Shown here in pieces: positions 3 to 64,000 of a stretch of DNA of 64,000 nt; position 1 is the stretch's first letter; each line of letters opens with the position of its first letter. The stretch is from the NCBI GenBank assembly GCA_949297765.1, contig CASFTV010000003.1, positions 62,001 through 126,000 on the forward strand, given 5' to 3'. A model generated the notes under the pieces. The model was not told the origin of the DNA and did not search any database. It worked only from the letters and a program-made list of their open reading frames with translations. Source of the DNA: an uncultured bacterium (GTDB taxonomy: Bacteria; Verrucomicrobiota; Lentisphaeria; Victivallales; UBA1829). Made by a program: the position numbers and the translations under genes.

Positions 3-329
3 GTCAAGAATGTGTCGGCGGAAGAACCGGCGTTCCGGCGGTATGCGGACGGCTATTCCGTGCTGACCGGCACCGTCCAGCCGGAAATCCTGGCGCAGGC
101 GGGGGCGATCATCATGCTCTCCAACGAATCCAACCGCGGGAAACTCGCCTATTTCATGGCAATCGACCACGCGGAGTTTTACAGACCGGTACTTCCCGGC
201 GATCAGATGGTCCTCGAAGTGGAGATTCCGGAAACAAAATCCCGTTTCGGAAAAGGAGAAGGACGCATCAAGATCGGCGGAAAGGATGTGGCGTACATCA
301 ATATGATGTTCGCTCTTGTGGATCCCTGA
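3..329 (+). CDS. FabZ-like hotdog-fold protein, 5' truncated, catalytic His missing
   Basis: The C-terminal about 108 residues of a protein cut by the left edge; the frame is open to the edge, so the true start lies outside. The tail (GKLAYFMAID, FYRPVLPGDQ, MMFALVDP) matches the hotdog fold of 3-hydroxyacyl-ACP dehydratase FabZ, which dehydrates 3-hydroxyacyl-ACP in fatty-acid elongation. The usual segment around the catalytic His (GHFPG) reads RYADG here, so His is replaced by Tyr. The second catalytic residue, the Glu of the helix, is kept in PEILAQ. It may therefore be a non-catalytic paralogue, or act on another substrate. glgB follows 33 bases later on the same strand, but no functional link is evident. 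The fold assignment is good; activity is doubtful. Confidence 0.75.
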   Translation, partial: VKNVSAEEPAFRRYADGYSVLTGTVQPEILAQAGAIIMLSNESNRGKLAYFMAIDHAEFYRPVLPGDQMVLEVEIPETKSRFGKGEGRIKIGGKDVAYINMMFALVDP

Positions 330-44320: not shown

Positions 44321-45553
44321 TCATTTCCAGCGGGAGATCACGATGCAGGCGTTGGATCCGCCGAATCCGAAACTGTTGCTCAGCGCATGGTTCAGTTCGA
44401 CATTTTCCCGGGTTTCGCGAATCAGATCCGCCCACGCGAACTCCTCCGCCGGCTCTTCCAGATTCGCGGTCGGACAGAGGAAGGAGTGTTCCAGCATCAG
44501 CGTTGTGAAAATCGCCTCCACCGCTCCTGCCGCGCCGATCATGTGTCCGGTCATGGATTTTGTGCTGTTGATCACCACATTCCGCGACGAATCGAACACC
44601 CGGCGGATGGATTCCATCTCCACGGGATCGCCGACCGGAGTCGCTGTTCCGTGGGTGTTGATATACTGAATCTCTTCCGGTGCAAGTCCGGCCATGCGGA
44701 TGGCTTTGCGCATCAGTTCGGCGCTGGACTCCGCATTGGGGATCACCATATCGGTTGCATTGCTGTTTGCCGCGAATCCGGAGACGACGGCTTTCGGCTG
44801 GTGTCCGCGGGCGAGAGCGTGCGATTCCCGTTCCAGGATCAGGATGCCGGCCCCCTCCCCCAGCACGAATCCGTCGCGGTTCTTGTCGAACGGACGGCTT
44901 GCGCGGTGCGGGGTGTCATTGTAGGAATGCGAGAGCGCCCGCATCGCATTGAATCCGAGCGCCTGCTGCCAGCTGACCTCTTCCGATCCGCCGACCATCA
45001 CGATGTCATACTCTCCGCTCGCGATCAGGCGGGCGCCCGCAATGATCGCCTGAGCGCTGCTGGTGCATGCCGCGCTGATGTCGTACGACTCTCCGGTCAG
45101 CCCGAACACCAGCGAGAGATTGGCCACGGCCGAGGACGGCATGATCCGGGGAACGGCAAACGGAGAAACCCGCCGGATCCGTTTTGTCTCCATATACCCG
45201 GCGGCGTTGCTGTAAACTTCGGAATACGCGCTTCCGCCGCAGCCGTTGATGACGGCCATGTCATGCGGCAGCGTCTCCATTGTGAATCCCGCTTCGATGA
45301 GCGCCTCATACGCGGCGGCCACCGCCATCCGGGAGTTCACCGACATGAAACGCCTGTTCTTCTGGTTCAGGACGGGACATTCCACATCATGATTCGCGAC
45401 TCCGGCCACCTGGGCATCCAGCCCGAGGTCCCTCCATTCCGGAAGAAACACCGTTCCCGTCTTTCCCTGTCTCAGCGATTCCGTATTTTCTTCAAGCCCG
45501 ACTCCGATCGGAGTGACGAGGCCGCGTCCGGAAACAACGATTCGATCCGCCAT
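44321..45553 (-). CDS. beta-ketoacyl-ACP synthase (KAS II / FabF-like)
   Basis: A 410-residue thiolase-fold condensing enzyme that extends acyl-ACP with malonyl-ACP. The Cys-His-His triad is complete: Cys in ISAACTSSAQ, His in NTHGTATPVGD, His in SMTGHMIGAAG; the Lys of the last motif is also present (TKSMTGH). Length and motifs fit FabF. The ATG at 45553 follows AAGGAT; an upstream in-frame extension lies in the leader. It is downstream of an AraC regulator and is not in a fab cluster, so it may be a specialised KAS. Confidence 0.92.
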   Translation of the reverse strand: MADRIVVSGRGLVTPIGVGLEENTESLRQGKTGTVFLPEWRDLGLDAQVAGVANHDVECPVLNQKNRRFMSVNSRMAVAAAYEALIEAGFTMETLPHDMAVINGCGGSAYSEVYSNAAGYMETKRIRRVSPFAVPRIMPSSAVANLSLVFGLTGESYDISAACTSSAQAIIAGARLIASGEYDIVMVGGSEEVSWQQALGFNAMRALSHSYNDTPHRASRPFDKNRDGFVLGEGAGILILERESHALARGHQPKAVVSGFAANSNATDMVIPNAESSAELMRKAIRMAGLAPEEIQYINTHGTATPVGDPVEMESIRRVFDSSRNVVINSTKSMTGHMIGAAGAVEAIFTTLMLEHSFLCPTANLEEPAEEFAWADLIRETRENVELNHALSNSFGFGGSNACIVISRWK

Positions 45554-45621
45554 GAGAGATCCTTCCCCATTATTTCTGAAAAAAGCATTCCGTTCCAATG
45601 TCCAGATGAGTATTCGAGCTT

Positions 45622-59875: not shown

Positions 59876-61339
59876 TCAGGAGGAGGACGGAGCCGAAGAA
59901 CCGGCTCCGTTTTCGTTTCTGCGCAGAAGTTTCCCGCTCGCGGTGCGGGGCAGCGACTCCACCGCGGAAAACGACTTCGGAACCTTGTAAAGCGCCAGAC
60001 GGGAAATACAGTACCGGCGCAGTTCCTTTTCCCATCCGCCGGGCAGCTCCCGCTCCGGAACAATTTCCGCGACGGGGAGTTCTCCGAACCCTGCGGCGGG
60101 CATGCCGCTCACTCTTGATTCGCGCACCAGAGGATGAGAATTCAGCACGGACTCCACCTCGTAGGGAAAGATCTTCATGCCGGCAAAGACGATCACATTT
60201 TTGGAACGGCCGAGGATGAAAAGGAAACGGTCGGAGTCAACGCATCCGACGTCTCCGGTACGGAACCAGGTATCCGGGCAGACCTCCGCGCGGAGGCGGA
60301 AGGGATTCAGATAGGCGTCGAACATCCCGGGTCCGCGAAGAAGAATATCCCCCTTCCCTTCGGCATCCGGATGTTCGATTTTCACTTCAAACGCCTCCTG
60401 AAGTTTCCCCACCGATGCGGCTTTCGAGGGATCTCCGGACGTCTCCACGCACGGCAGTCCGACCTCGATGATCCCATAGGCCTGAGCAAGCGGACGGCCG
60501 AATTTCCTCCGGAACGCCTCGGCATCGGCGGGATCCAGCTTCATTGCCGTTGAGACCGCAAGGCGGATCTTTTTCATACAGTCTGCGGGAAAATCGGCGG
60601 AGTGCGTCATCAGCCGGTAGTGATAAGGAGTCGCATACAGCAGAGAGAGCGGAAAATCGCGGAACGCCTCCCGCATCCGGCTTTCAACGGGACGTTCGCA
60701 GATCACGATTGCCGCCCCCCGGCGCAGGAACAGAAGAATCGTCACGACAAAATGGAACGCCATATCCAGCACCCACAGCACATGTTCTCCGCGGGTCACG
60801 CCGAGTCCGGCGGCACAGGCCGAGGTGCGTTCCAGGACCGCCTCGTGAGAAAGGACAACCCCTTTGTTCTCCCCGGTCGTCCCGGAGGAGAAGCGGATGA
60901 ACGCGGGAATGCGGCCCTCCGGCAGCGCCACCGGACGGATCTCCGGATCGCGCATCCGGAACAGAAATGCGTCACGGAAACCGTCCGGAGAAGGGAGGCG
61001 CGCATCCCCCTCCCCTCCGTGCGCCGAATCAGAGAGCAGAACATTGATTCCGACCTTCTCCGGCATGGAACGCAGTTCTTCCGCCGAGGCACGGGTGGAG
61101 AGCGGAACGATCGCCGCATTCAGAGAAAGCACCGCCAGACTGACGGCAATATATTCGAACGAGTCCTCCGCCACGATTCCGACCCGCATCCCCGGGCGCA
61201 GACCGGCGGCGGAAAGAACGGCGGCGCACTCCCGGACACTTCGCAGAAGCGACGGATAAGAGATGGAGCGTCCGCGGTCGACAACGGCAATTCCGTCATA
61301 CTCTCCAATCTCCCGGACGATCTGTTCAAAGACGTTCAT
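59876..61339 (-). CDS. AMP-dependent acyl ligase (acyl-ACP/CoA synthetase-like)
   Basis: A 487-residue ANL-superfamily enzyme that activates a carboxylic acid as acyl-AMP and passes it to a thiol. The core motifs are complete: P-loop FSSGTTGENKGVVLSH (about 150), QAYGIIEVGLPC, YRTGD-like WFRTGDVGCVD, LGRSKNVIVFAGMKI, and LPRTASGKLLRR with the catalytic Lys. Next to a dedicated ACP it probably loads the starter or a fatty/aryl acid onto that ACP, as the AMP ligase of aryl-polyene and similar clusters does. Its ATG overlaps the stop of the condensation-like gene. The Ser-rich C-terminus encodes the dnaJ terminator on the other strand. Confidence 0.9.
   Translation of the reverse strand: MNVFEQIVREIGEYDGIAVVDRGRSISYPSLLRSVRECAAVLSAAGLRPGMRVGIVAEDSFEYIAVSLAVLSLNAAIVPLSTRASAEELRSMPEKVGINVLLSDSAHGGEGDARLPSPDGFRDAFLFRMRDPEIRPVALPEGRIPAFIRFSSGTTGENKGVVLSHEAVLERTSACAAGLGVTRGEHVLWVLDMAFHFVVTILLFLRRGAAIVICERPVESRMREAFRDFPLSLLYATPYHYRLMTHSADFPADCMKKIRLAVSTAMKLDPADAEAFRRKFGRPLAQAYGIIEVGLPCVETSGDPSKAASVGKLQEAFEVKIEHPDAEGKGDILLRGPGMFDAYLNPFRLRAEVCPDTWFRTGDVGCVDSDRFLFILGRSKNVIVFAGMKIFPYEVESVLNSHPLVRESRVSGMPAAGFGELPVAEIVPERELPGGWEKELRRYCISRLALYKVPKSFSAVESLPRTASGKLLRRNENGAGSSAPSSS
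59887..59918 (+). terminator. terminator of the fmdB-htpG-dnaJ operon inside a convergent gene
   Basis: A perfect 8-bp stem (ACGGAGCC / GGCTCCGT) with an 8-base loop, followed by TTTTCGTTT, 27 bases after the dnaJ stop. It lies within the last codons of the acyl ligase gene on the other strand (the Ser/Gly-rich tail). Confidence 0.75.
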
Positions 61340-62631
61340 TCCCCGTTCCCCCGGAGATCCTTTTCCAGACTTTTGGCAAACCGTTCGACATCCGCTTCGG
61401 GAAACACGCCGCTGCGGCAGGAAACGACCGCGTTCAGACGGTTGTCGAACATATTGAAAAAGACCCCGAGCCCCGTGATCGGCGGCATGGAGGGAAGATG
61501 ATACAGATTGCTGAGTCTCCGTCCGGCGAAACGACCTTCGGAAAGCGAGCTTCCCGAAACGAATGAAAACATGAAGCTGCCCGTGGCGGCCGGTCCCATT
61601 CGGCGGACGATCTCCAGCAGCAGGAAAGGCGGAGCGATCCGGGTCAGCCGGCTGGCGGCCCGGTAGGCAAGAGCAATGCGTTCCCCGGTTCCCGTGAAAA
61701 TCTGACGGCGAGTCTCCTCAATGGTCCGGCGGGGATCGTCGAGAAGAGAACGCTTCAGCGAAACGGGAAGCATGCTCCATTGATTGAAGAAAATGGCATC
61801 GGCTGGAATTCCGTCCTGCCCGCGCATGTCAATGGACATCGGAATCAGAAGGGAGGAATCCCTCCGGTCATACGGGGAAAACACCGCGTTGTAGTGCCGC
61901 GCAGTGAGAGAAAGAAGAAACGGAGTTATCATGAACGGTCCGGCTTCGGAATCGGAGCGGCTCCGCAGGACATCGGTTTCCGATTCCGTCAGAGGGATGA
62001 CCCGGCAGGCGGAAGCGGCGGTCTCCGGAGCGCTCCGGGCGAAGGTCGGTCCCGCATTGTGCAGAGCAATCAGGCGGCGCTGGATCTGTTTTCCCGCGGA
62101 GAACTGTTTTTCCCACTCGTTCAGCATCGGGGAGCGGAGTCCCGGTTCCTGCTGCTCCAGCAGGCCGCCTCCGCCGGGGCAGAACGACTCCAGAAGAAGC
62201 TCCGCGCCGCGTCCGTCGAACAGCAGATGGCTGAACTTGAACAGCAGAGCCGAACCCGTCTTGTGGCGGATGACGTGCAGCGCCAGCGACTGATGCGCGG
62301 GAAGCGGCATGTTTCCGAATCGGTCAAGCGCATTGGAATAGTCGGAAGTGAACAGCAGCTCCTCTTCCGTGACCAGCAGGGGAGTCGGCGCTCCGGGCTT
62401 CCAGTACGGAGCCAGATGAAACGGATGACGGCGGATGCTCCCGTTCAGCAGCGGAAGATGCTTTTCCAGCCGGCTCTGAAGAAGCGCGGAGGCAAGATCC
62501 GTCGGGAACGGCTGAGCGGTTTCCAGCACGACAAGAAAATGGTTTCCCTTCCCGGGAGTCAGCCGGGACTGGTAGTTCAGCAGATTCGCCACCCAGTCGA
62601 ATCCGTCCAGATACATCCGCTTTCCGTTCAT
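61336..62631 (-). CDS. free-standing condensation/acyltransferase-like protein with HxxxDG motif
   Basis: A 431-residue protein of the CoA-dependent acyltransferase superfamily (NRPS condensation, WES/DGAT and PapA-like enzymes). The catalytic motif is HLLFDGRG in FKFSHLLFDGRGAELLLE (about 135-152). The downstream LIPMSIDMRGQDG resembles the second conserved region of the superfamily. It is not fused to other NRPS domains. Overlap with the ACP stop and the ligase start places it in the acyl-chain pathway; it may transfer the ACP-bound chain to an amine or hydroxyl acceptor. Acceptor unknown. Confidence 0.75.
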   Translation of the reverse strand: MNGKRMYLDGFDWVANLLNYQSRLTPGKGNHFLVVLETAQPFPTDLASALLQSRLEKHLPLLNGSIRRHPFHLAPYWKPGAPTPLLVTEEELLFTSDYSNALDRFGNMPLPAHQSLALHVIRHKTGSALLFKFSHLLFDGRGAELLLESFCPGGGGLLEQQEPGLRSPMLNEWEKQFSAGKQIQRRLIALHNAGPTFARSAPETAASACRVIPLTESETDVLRSRSDSEAGPFMITPFLLSLTARHYNAVFSPYDRRDSSLLIPMSIDMRGQDGIPADAIFFNQWSMLPVSLKRSLLDDPRRTIEETRRQIFTGTGERIALAYRAASRLTRIAPPFLLLEIVRRMGPAATGSFMFSFVSGSSLSEGRFAGRRLSNLYHLPSMPPITGLGVFFNMFDNRLNAVVSCRSGVFPEADVERFAKSLEKDLRGNGE

Positions 62632-62885
62632 TGATTCCGTTCCCTCGCGATCCGTTCTGCGAGGCTGTCCACCGACCCGACGTCCGCCATGCTGATTCCC
62701 GATTCGATCAGATTCACGTTCCAGTTTTTCATCGCGGTCAGCAGCAGTTCCACGAATCCCATCGAATTGATTCCGTTCTGTGCGAGCGAGCGTTTCCGGT
62801 CCAGCTCCTCCGCTTTTTTCCCGGTGATCACGGCGATCTCCTCCAGCAGTTTCCCGGCAATTTCCTCCGCATTTACTTCTGACAT
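62628..62885 (-). CDS. acyl carrier protein
   Basis: An 85-residue single-domain ACP. The 4'-phosphopantetheine serine is Ser41 in NGINSMGFVELLL, with Asn in place of the usual Asp before the Ser. Helices I-III are otherwise typical. It carries the growing chain for the adjacent ketosynthase and is the likely partner of the AMP ligase and condensation-like enzyme. It overlaps the CLF-like gene by 13 bases and the condensation-like gene by 4. Confidence 0.92.
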   Translation of the reverse strand: MSEVNAEEIAGKLLEEIAVITGKKAEELDRKRSLAQNGINSMGFVELLLTAMKNWNVNLIESGISMADVGSVDSLAERIARERNQ

Positions 62886-63562
62886 TGTACAAAACCCTTT
62901 CTTAAAACGATCTCATCCTGTTGGTTCATGGAACGGATTTTTTCCGCGACAGCGAGGGGATCCACCGGCTGATGCGGATCGGGCGGCTCCTCCGAAAACT
63001 CCACTCTCCCGTGCCGGTTCTCCTCCGGATCCGCGGAAAGCAGACATGCCATGGCGTACTCCTCCGGCATCGGAAAACCGATGTGTTCCAGGGTCGCCGT
63101 CAGCAGACCTTTATCGAAGGCGGTCACGCAGAGCATTCTCCGGCAGTATCCGGTCCGGAACATGGAATCCGCCGAAGCGAAGCCCTCATAAAAAATATCA
63201 TCTATCCCGGTCATGGAGTATTCGGGTCCCTGAAGGCCGAGCGCCATTGCGACATAGGAGGCGGCCGCGTTGAAGACCGAATGGGAAAATGCGGTCGAAA
63301 GCACCTGATCCTCCGGATAGTCGAGCAGCTCGTTCAGAAACGCTCCCGTCGTGTTGTGGGGGCCGAGAAATCCCGCAACGATCACCCCGGTCTCCTCCGG
63401 CAGAGTCCCGCAGCCGGAATCCGCGACCGCCTCCAGCGAGGCGGCGACCATCATTGCCGTATAGCGGTCCGCCCGGCGGATTCCGCACTGTTTCTTCACA
63501 GCGGCGATCCGCGCATTCATCTCCTCCCCCATCAAACATGCGGCTCCGGCAATATACAGCAT
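62873..63562 (-). CDS. chain-length-factor-like beta-ketoacyl synthase (N-terminal-like domain)
   Basis: A 229-residue protein with only the N-terminal thiolase-like half of a ketosynthase, as in the 'beta-ketoacyl synthase chain length factor' family of aryl-polyene and flexirubin clusters. FSHSVFNAAASYVAMALGLQGP (part: FSHSVFNAAASYVAMA) matches the family's SVxNA motif; the active-site Cys of true KS is absent. It probably dimerises with the upstream ketosynthase and sets chain length. The ATG overlaps the KS stop (TGATG), with AGGAGG just upstream. Confidence 0.8.
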   Translation of the reverse strand: MLYIAGAACLMGEEMNARIAAVKKQCGIRRADRYTAMMVAASLEAVADSGCGTLPEETGVIVAGFLGPHNTTGAFLNELLDYPEDQVLSTAFSHSVFNAAASYVAMALGLQGPEYSMTGIDDIFYEGFASADSMFRTGYCRRMLCVTAFDKGLLTATLEHIGFPMPEEYAMACLLSADPEENRHGRVEFSEEPPDPHQPVDPLAVAEKIRSMNQQDEIVLRKGFVQCQK

Positions 63563-64000
63563 CACTCCTCCTCCCCGACGATCAGCGCCGTATTGCATCC
63601 CCCGAATCCCAGCGACGTGGACATTGCGAAATGTCCGGAAAAGGCGGTCTCCTCCGCAACCGGCGCAAGCGGCATCTCCTCCTCTTTCCGTCGGAATCCC
63701 GGACTCGCCGGAAGCCGTTTCTCCCGGAGCATGATCATGGAGAAAATCAGCTCCAGCACCCCCGCCGCGCCGAGAGTATGCCCCGTCATTCCCTTGGTGG
63801 ACAGAAAACGGACTTCCGGGCCGAAGATCCGGGCAAACAGAGAGCTTTCACAGAAATCATTGGTCCGAGTTCCCGTTCCGTGCGCATTGAGGAATGCAAT
63901 CTCCTCCGGCCGGAGTCCCGCTCTGGCGAGAGCCTGGCGGATCGCCCGTTCCAATCCGCGTCCGTCCGAATGCGGACTGGTGATGTGATAGGCGTCCCCG
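63562..64000 (-). CDS. beta-ketoacyl synthase, 5' part beyond the window
   Basis: The C-terminal 145 or so residues of a condensing enzyme; the frame stays open to the right edge and continues as GDAYHITSPHSDGRG at the cut, a standard KS segment. The two catalytic histidines are present (NAHGTGTRTND and KGMTGHTLGAAG), and the end SLGFGGCNTALIV is typical. The active-site Cys lies outside the window. First visible gene of the right-end operon; its partner is the CLF-like protein. Confidence 0.93.
   Translation of the reverse strand, partial: GDAYHITSPHSDGRGLERAIRQALARAGLRPEEIAFLNAHGTGTRTNDFCESSLFARIFGPEVRFLSTKGMTGHTLGAAGVLELIFSMIMLREKRLPASPGFRRKEEEMPLAPVAEETAFSGHFAMSTSLGFGGCNTALIVGEEE

Follow-up and report, generated by a model that had tools for sequence, protein, structure and literature searches.

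Organization of the operon

The window analyzed here is the whole 64,000-nucleotide stretch at positions 62001–126000 of contig C3 in genome G000, a 4.23-Mb assembly of 92 contigs. As read from the open reading frames, a five-gene operon occupies window positions 59876–64000 on the minus strand. It encodes, in order, a ketosynthase (KS; 3′ part, 63562–64000), a half-length CLF that corresponds to the KS N-terminal domain alone (62873–63562, with the start codon at 63562 and an alternative ATG at 63598), an ACP (62628–62885, serine attachment site at 62763–62765), a free-standing condensation-fold enzyme of about 431 residues, hereafter COND (61336–62631), and an AMP-forming acyl ligase (59876–61339). 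KS and CLF share the sequence TGATG, a 1-nt overlap that grows to 37 nt when translation is taken from the upstream ATG; CLF and ACP overlap by 13 nt, and the ACP/COND and COND/ligase junctions by 4 nt each (ATGA). Overlaps of 1, 13, 4, and 4 nt are as would be expected of translationally coupled genes. The reading frames and junctions bear out the preliminary description of five overlapping genes on one strand. On one point it is corrected: the KS is cut merely by the window edge, the full gene spanning C3:125562–126779 (405 aa).

A divergent MFS transporter gene begins approximately 100 bp upstream of the operon and, for this reason, the operon comprises exactly five genes; at its other end it converges with a dnaJ-like gene. 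The remainder of the cluster had also been placed past the right edge of the window. This is not so: extension to the right revealed the MFS gene, then a trxB-like gene and unrelated genes, with no further pathway genes. The remaining pathway genes are instead found at three other places, one of them to the left of the window. The order of the five genes is kept in relatives down to about 28% identity; thus, the arrangement is not a chance one.

Ketosynthase, CLF, ACP, and acyl ligase

The KS matches the Pfam KS C-terminal domain within the window (E 2e-26). By reading, the complete protein retains the catalytic C-H-H residues in the motifs SNACASG, NAHGTGT, and GHTLGAAG. It is a FabF-like protein, for which the top curated match is NF006618 (270 bits versus a cut-off of 407), and an ApeO-like role is assigned to it. 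The CLF matches the KS N-terminal domain (Pfam, E 1e-5) and, in alignment, equals the N-terminal half of a KS from which the active-site Cys is absent. Its AF2 model (pLDDT 83.5) matches the ishigamide CLF Iga12, ApeC (6qsp_B, 238 aa), and 7f28_A in Foldseek, with TM scores of 0.50–0.58, i.e., at the level of fold only. Gene content and the predicted CLF fold together agree with the pairing of a KS with a half-length CLF seen in aryl-polyene systems (ApeO-ApeC type), and the type II KS/CLF/ACP logic proposed at the outset is upheld by the families and by this fold. Chains B and C of PDB entry 9s5h are the best sequence match for both the KS and the CLF profiles.

The ACP is barely recognizable (Pfam PP-binding E 0.01, below the cut-off; NCBIfam AmcB E 4e-5); its serine is invariant in 12 relatives. 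A cispentacin pathway was considered and rejected, as the ACP and KS matches to AmcB and AmcF fall far below cut-off and no other sign of it was seen. The ligase carries a strong AMP-binding match (Pfam, E 3e-52) that places it in the acyl-CoA/ACP ligase class, and its SSGTTG and PRTASGK motifs are intact by reading.

The condensation-fold enzyme

COND was assigned by Pfam, profile searches, and predicted fold. Its AF2 model (pLDDT 92.6, pTM 0.92) confidently predicts an NRPS-condensation fold; the top PDB folds are AzeD (the best, TM 0.74), NRPS C/E/Cy domains, and the TRI3 15-O-acetyltransferase. The motif HLLFDG (window 62212–62229, minus strand), located in an alignment of 19 homologues, corresponds to HxxxDG. 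H137 and D141 are invariant in 19/19 sequences, while G142 is replaced by Ala in some distant ones. Both defining features of the condensation-fold superfamily, the fold and the catalytic HxxxD, are therefore found in COND, the former in the predicted structure and the latter in the alignment.

Placement within the superfamily is less direct. Searched against the PDB as a single sequence, COND had no meaningful match; its profile matches TRI3 (E 2e-5), and Pfam detects a WS/DGAT C-terminal domain (E 4e-5; 24.3 versus a cut-off of 20.7). Over the whole protein, the wax-ester synthase model TIGR02946 scores just 19.6 bits against a cut-off of 310. The NRPS condensation domain PF00668 has no Pfam match on the COND of the window and matches 1 of the 19 homologues, at E 5e-4. 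With scores this low, both a plain wax-ester synthase and an NRPS condensation domain were rejected as identities of COND. AzeD, TRI3, and WS/DGAT, themselves free-standing condensation-fold enzymes, have the fold and the HxxxDG histidine in common with COND but are only 10–16% identical to it; unlike them, COND belongs to a KS/CLF operon in which it has an ACP of its own. No relative was found in viral contigs.

The fold does not fix the reaction, since the PDB title of AzeD describes a dehydratase and enzymes of the C-fold also epimerize and cyclize; an amide-forming, an ester-forming, and a non-transfer role are indistinguishable from sequence. COND might thus be a non-transferase that carries out dehydration, isomerization, or gatekeeping on ACP-bound chains, as the AzeD match and the Gly-to-Ala replacement after HxxxD in several distant members could suggest. 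We consider this unlikely: HxxxD is invariant, the Pfam and PDB profiles point to the WS/DGAT C-terminus and to an O-acetyltransferase, and the pathway already has dehydratases of its own.

Remaining pathway genes in the same genome

Judging from sequence, the operon is part of a putative pathway of about 22 genes at four genome loci. Block B (C40:40216–45641) encodes a thioesterase, a second KS (KS2), a second half-KS homologous to CLF (hhalign probability 96%), a TIGR04072 protein, a GT2 protein, and an LPLAT. The TIGR04072 (rSAM_ladder_B12) protein scores 466 bits against a cut-off of 360 and contains B12-binding and Radical_SAM domains.

Block C (C3:43779–54949, or L152:5280–16450) ends about 7 kb to the left of the window start. 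It contains genes for a KR, a CrtI-like protein, a third KS, an ACP, an LPLAT, a FlxY-like ligase (FlxY 391 bits versus a cut-off of 520), a radical-SAM/dehydratase fusion, LolA (LolA2_flexi 71 bits versus 125), an MMPL-DUF3261 protein, and a second dehydratase. The KR, found by motif scan and confirmed with FabG and FlxB models, is closest to FabG and next to FlxB (255 bits versus a cut-off of 340). In the fusion, a radical-SAM/SPASM protein carries a C-terminal hotdog domain, i.e., a dehydratase domain of aryl-polyene type; the top PDB match of the hotdog profile is 6qsr_B, a FabA/FabZ-type dehydratase in what we take to be the entry of the ApeI-ApeP complex. This fusion and the MMPL exporter with its fused DUF3261 tail belong to one operon. 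Block D is a methyltransferase-like gene (C1:31839–32537), recognized from a motif of the VDLCSG type and from profile searches in which SAM methyltransferases matched weakly.

The KR, dehydratases, and thioesterase of an aryl-polyene pathway are accordingly present in blocks B and C, and its export proteins LolA, MMPL, and DUF3261 in block C. Of the gene types that the preliminary description expected farther along the contig, KR, dehydratase, LolA, and glycosyl/acyltransferase genes are found in these other blocks; a phosphopantetheinyl transferase was not seen in the pathway blocks. The radical-SAM genes, all of them outside the window, could not figure in that description. Absences in this genome refer to targeted searches.

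Two other features of the window are probably housekeeping: a solitary FabF-like KS beside a dus-like gene (44321–45598, minus strand) and, where the window begins, a fragment that resembles FabZ (12–329, plus strand).

KS, ACP, KR, and dehydratase families are common to fatty-acid synthesis, and the operon could in principle be an ordinary locus of that kind. Such a locus did not emerge when the contig was extended, and we regard this explanation as very improbable: the FabF-like KS is separate, fatty-acid synthesis involves no half-CLF, COND, radical-SAM, or export genes, and COND occurs in only 26/120 related genomes.

Conservation in relatives

The named relatives, identified in a public scan with a narrower COND profile, are Victivallales/Lentisphaeria, in agreement with the early suggestion of a PVC-type anaerobe. 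In the congeners G001 and G002, the operon comes immediately after KS2, half-KS, TIGR04072 B12-radical-SAM, GT2-DUF2062, and lipid-A-type acyltransferase genes; in G003 the locus lies on short contigs. The corresponding KS2/half-KS2/TIGR04072/GT2/LPLAT set of G000 sits on C40, apart from the operon. In relatives farther removed, this neighborhood is extended by genes for a methyltransferase-like protein, for another KS and ACP, for an LPLAT and a FlxY-like ligase, and for a radical-SAM/SPASM protein together with LolA and an MMPL exporter.

Nearly the whole set is found in Victivallis vadensis DSM 14823 (G052/L095) within about 31 kb (C12:51782 to 82848), together with an extra B12-radical-SAM gene that is absent from G000. 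Its ACP (C12:72103–72339) is separated from COND by an unrelated insert of about 7 kb (C12, about 72340–79370; L040), in which AraC-type regulator, prepilin-like, GH/esterase, and beta-helix-like genes can be read.

The tightest association observed is that of COND with the ACP, which is directly upstream in 24/30 loci; beyond these, V. vadensis and L129 also have an ACP near COND. It is chiefly for this reason that COND is proposed to draw its acyl donor from its ACP. COND and TIGR04072 are each found in 26/120 relatives and occur together in 21 genomes (Fisher 2e-14, a value inflated by shared ancestry). Analogously, TIGR04072 is present in 23/27 genomes with strong COND matches versus 43/388 in a phylum sample (2e-21, likewise inflated by shared ancestry). 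TIGR04072 clusters L138, L139, and L143 have no COND adjoining KS/CLF, and in G009, G040, G047, and G053 COND is apart from the TIGR04072/KS/CLF clusters; COND is therefore not a universal step.

COND homologues distant from a KS/CLF cluster were also seen at L044, L052, L053, and L055, the last of which retains an ACP in front. Weaker COND-profile matches (E 1e-27 to 1e-52) in G164, G247, G254, and other genomes of families f22/f35, which are devoid of TIGR04072, are possibly a sister family.

Comparison with known pathways

The 18-gene ape table of Escherichia coli lists a methyltransferase, a CLF, an LPLAT, two ACPs, an acyl-ACP synthetase, two dehydratases, a glycosyl/acyltransferase, a thioesterase, a LolA-like protein, an RND exporter, DUF3261, two KSs, and a KR, with neither a condensation-type nor a radical-SAM enzyme (PMC8253772). 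Family or role counterparts of ApeB–F and ApeH–R of this cluster (apeA–R, strain CFT073) are present here, while none was seen for ApeA or, in the pathway blocks, for the membrane protein ApeG. Common to both are thus a KS with a half-length CLF, at least two ACPs, an AMP ligase, a KR, two dehydratases, a thioesterase, an LPLAT, a glycosyl/acyltransferase, LolA, an MMPL exporter, DUF3261, a second KS, and a methyltransferase-like gene. Additional here are COND, the B12-radical-SAM protein, the radical-SAM/SPASM-dehydratase fusion, the CrtI-like oxidoreductase, the FlxY-like ligase, a second KS/half-KS pair, and the spread of the genes over four loci. The suspected resemblance to aryl-polyene and flexirubin clusters is supported, most of the E. 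coli list being matched, and the condensation-type enzyme is, as first suggested, the odd one out. A characterized family already holding COND was found neither in that list (PMC8253772) nor in the main text of the flexirubin report (PMC3992019).

As described in that main text, the flx cluster of Chitinophaga pinensis shares with the present set a FlxY-like ligase, a FlxB-like KR, several KSs, LolA, an exporter, and glycosyl- and acyltransferases (PMC3992019). One might accordingly think of flexirubin proper, in which COND or the second ligase would esterify a polyene acid to a dialkylresorcinol. The FlxB, FlxY, and LolA2_flexi matches speak for it, but all three lie under the curated cut-offs, DarA/DarB-like (dialkylresorcinol) and ammonia-lyase genes were not noticed in the blocks, and COND and the radical-SAM genes are extra; in our opinion, this explanation is quite improbable.

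Candidate ladderane clusters of Kuenenia and Desulfotalea combine KS paralogues with radical-SAM, phytoene-desaturase-like, phenylacetyl-CoA-ligase-like, and glycosyltransferase genes (PMC2649909). The TIGR04072 family, CrtI-like oxidoreductase, ligase, glycosyltransferase, KS paralogues, and methyltransferase seen here resemble that mix, the Kuenenia set being compared by description, and "ladderane" clusters whose product is unknown have been called in Verrucomicrobiota (PMC9902471). Together with the TIGR04072 score above cut-off, this is consistent with a ladderane or anaerobic-PUFA-type pathway as understood by Rattray et al., in which the radical-SAM and CrtI-like enzymes would desaturate or cyclize an ACP-bound chain, so that the product would be a membrane lipid of the cyclized or polyunsaturated kind and not a polyene pigment lipid. 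Against it stand the LolA/MMPL/DUF3261 export genes, half-CLFs, thioesterase, and paired dehydratases, which are aryl-polyene/flexirubin features and, together with COND, set the present genes apart from the ladderane candidates; no indication of a ladderane product was seen. Moreover, D. psychrophila, which carries such genes, has no detectable ladderanes (PMC2649909), and heterologous expression of anammox genes yielded none, according to a later summary (PMC4790861, as summarized in PMC9821293). A ladderane or PUFA product therefore seems to us doubtful.

Proposed pathway and implications

We consider it reasonably probable that the operon is the KS/CLF/ACP/COND/ligase module of a dispersed outer-membrane lipid pathway of aryl-polyene/flexirubin type, with added radical chemistry and with COND moving the finished chain from the ACP to an alcohol or amine. 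By the family roles of the proteins, the KS and CLF pair would extend a chain on the ACP with malonyl units, the KR and dehydratases would leave double bonds, the AMP ligase would load the starter, which in aryl-polyene pathways is 4-hydroxybenzoate, or re-load a freed acid, and MMPL/LolA would transport the product to the outer membrane. The B12-radical-SAM enzyme may methylate or rearrange the chain in an O2-free manner, and COND, by means of its HxxxD histidine, may take the completed chain off the ACP dedicated to it and pass it to a lipid or sugar that offers an alcohol or amine as acceptor group. The lipid would be finished by GT2 and the LPLATs. The product is probably an unusual outer-membrane lipid, one that has not yet been looked for. 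In a more far-reaching version, which is speculative and rather improbable, the operon and its partners form an anaerobic pathway that uses the B12-radical-SAM enzyme to remodel a polyene on its ACP and a dedicated COND to release it, the acceptor being a lipid or sugar and the product a new class of outer-membrane lipids. What is new here is the presence of ladderane-type radical enzymes and COND on a known aryl-polyene/flexirubin type, not a new principle.

TIGR04072-type enzymes have no established role outside anammox bacteria; pure cultures of the anammox organisms are lacking, and their pathway is a putative one. Cultured V. vadensis DSM 14823 contains a near-contiguous, complete set of TIGR04072 genes, aryl-polyene export genes, and an ACP-linked COND, which makes the lipid directly testable. 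If the polyene is indeed remodelled as suggested, V. vadensis would offer an organism in culture in which to find out what the TIGR04072 "ladderane" enzymes do. Because one pathway is spread over four loci, cluster-based mining catches only fragments of it in such genomes. In G020 (L155, L034) the pathway is broken between KS2 and its half-KS partner, and the break points vary among genomes.
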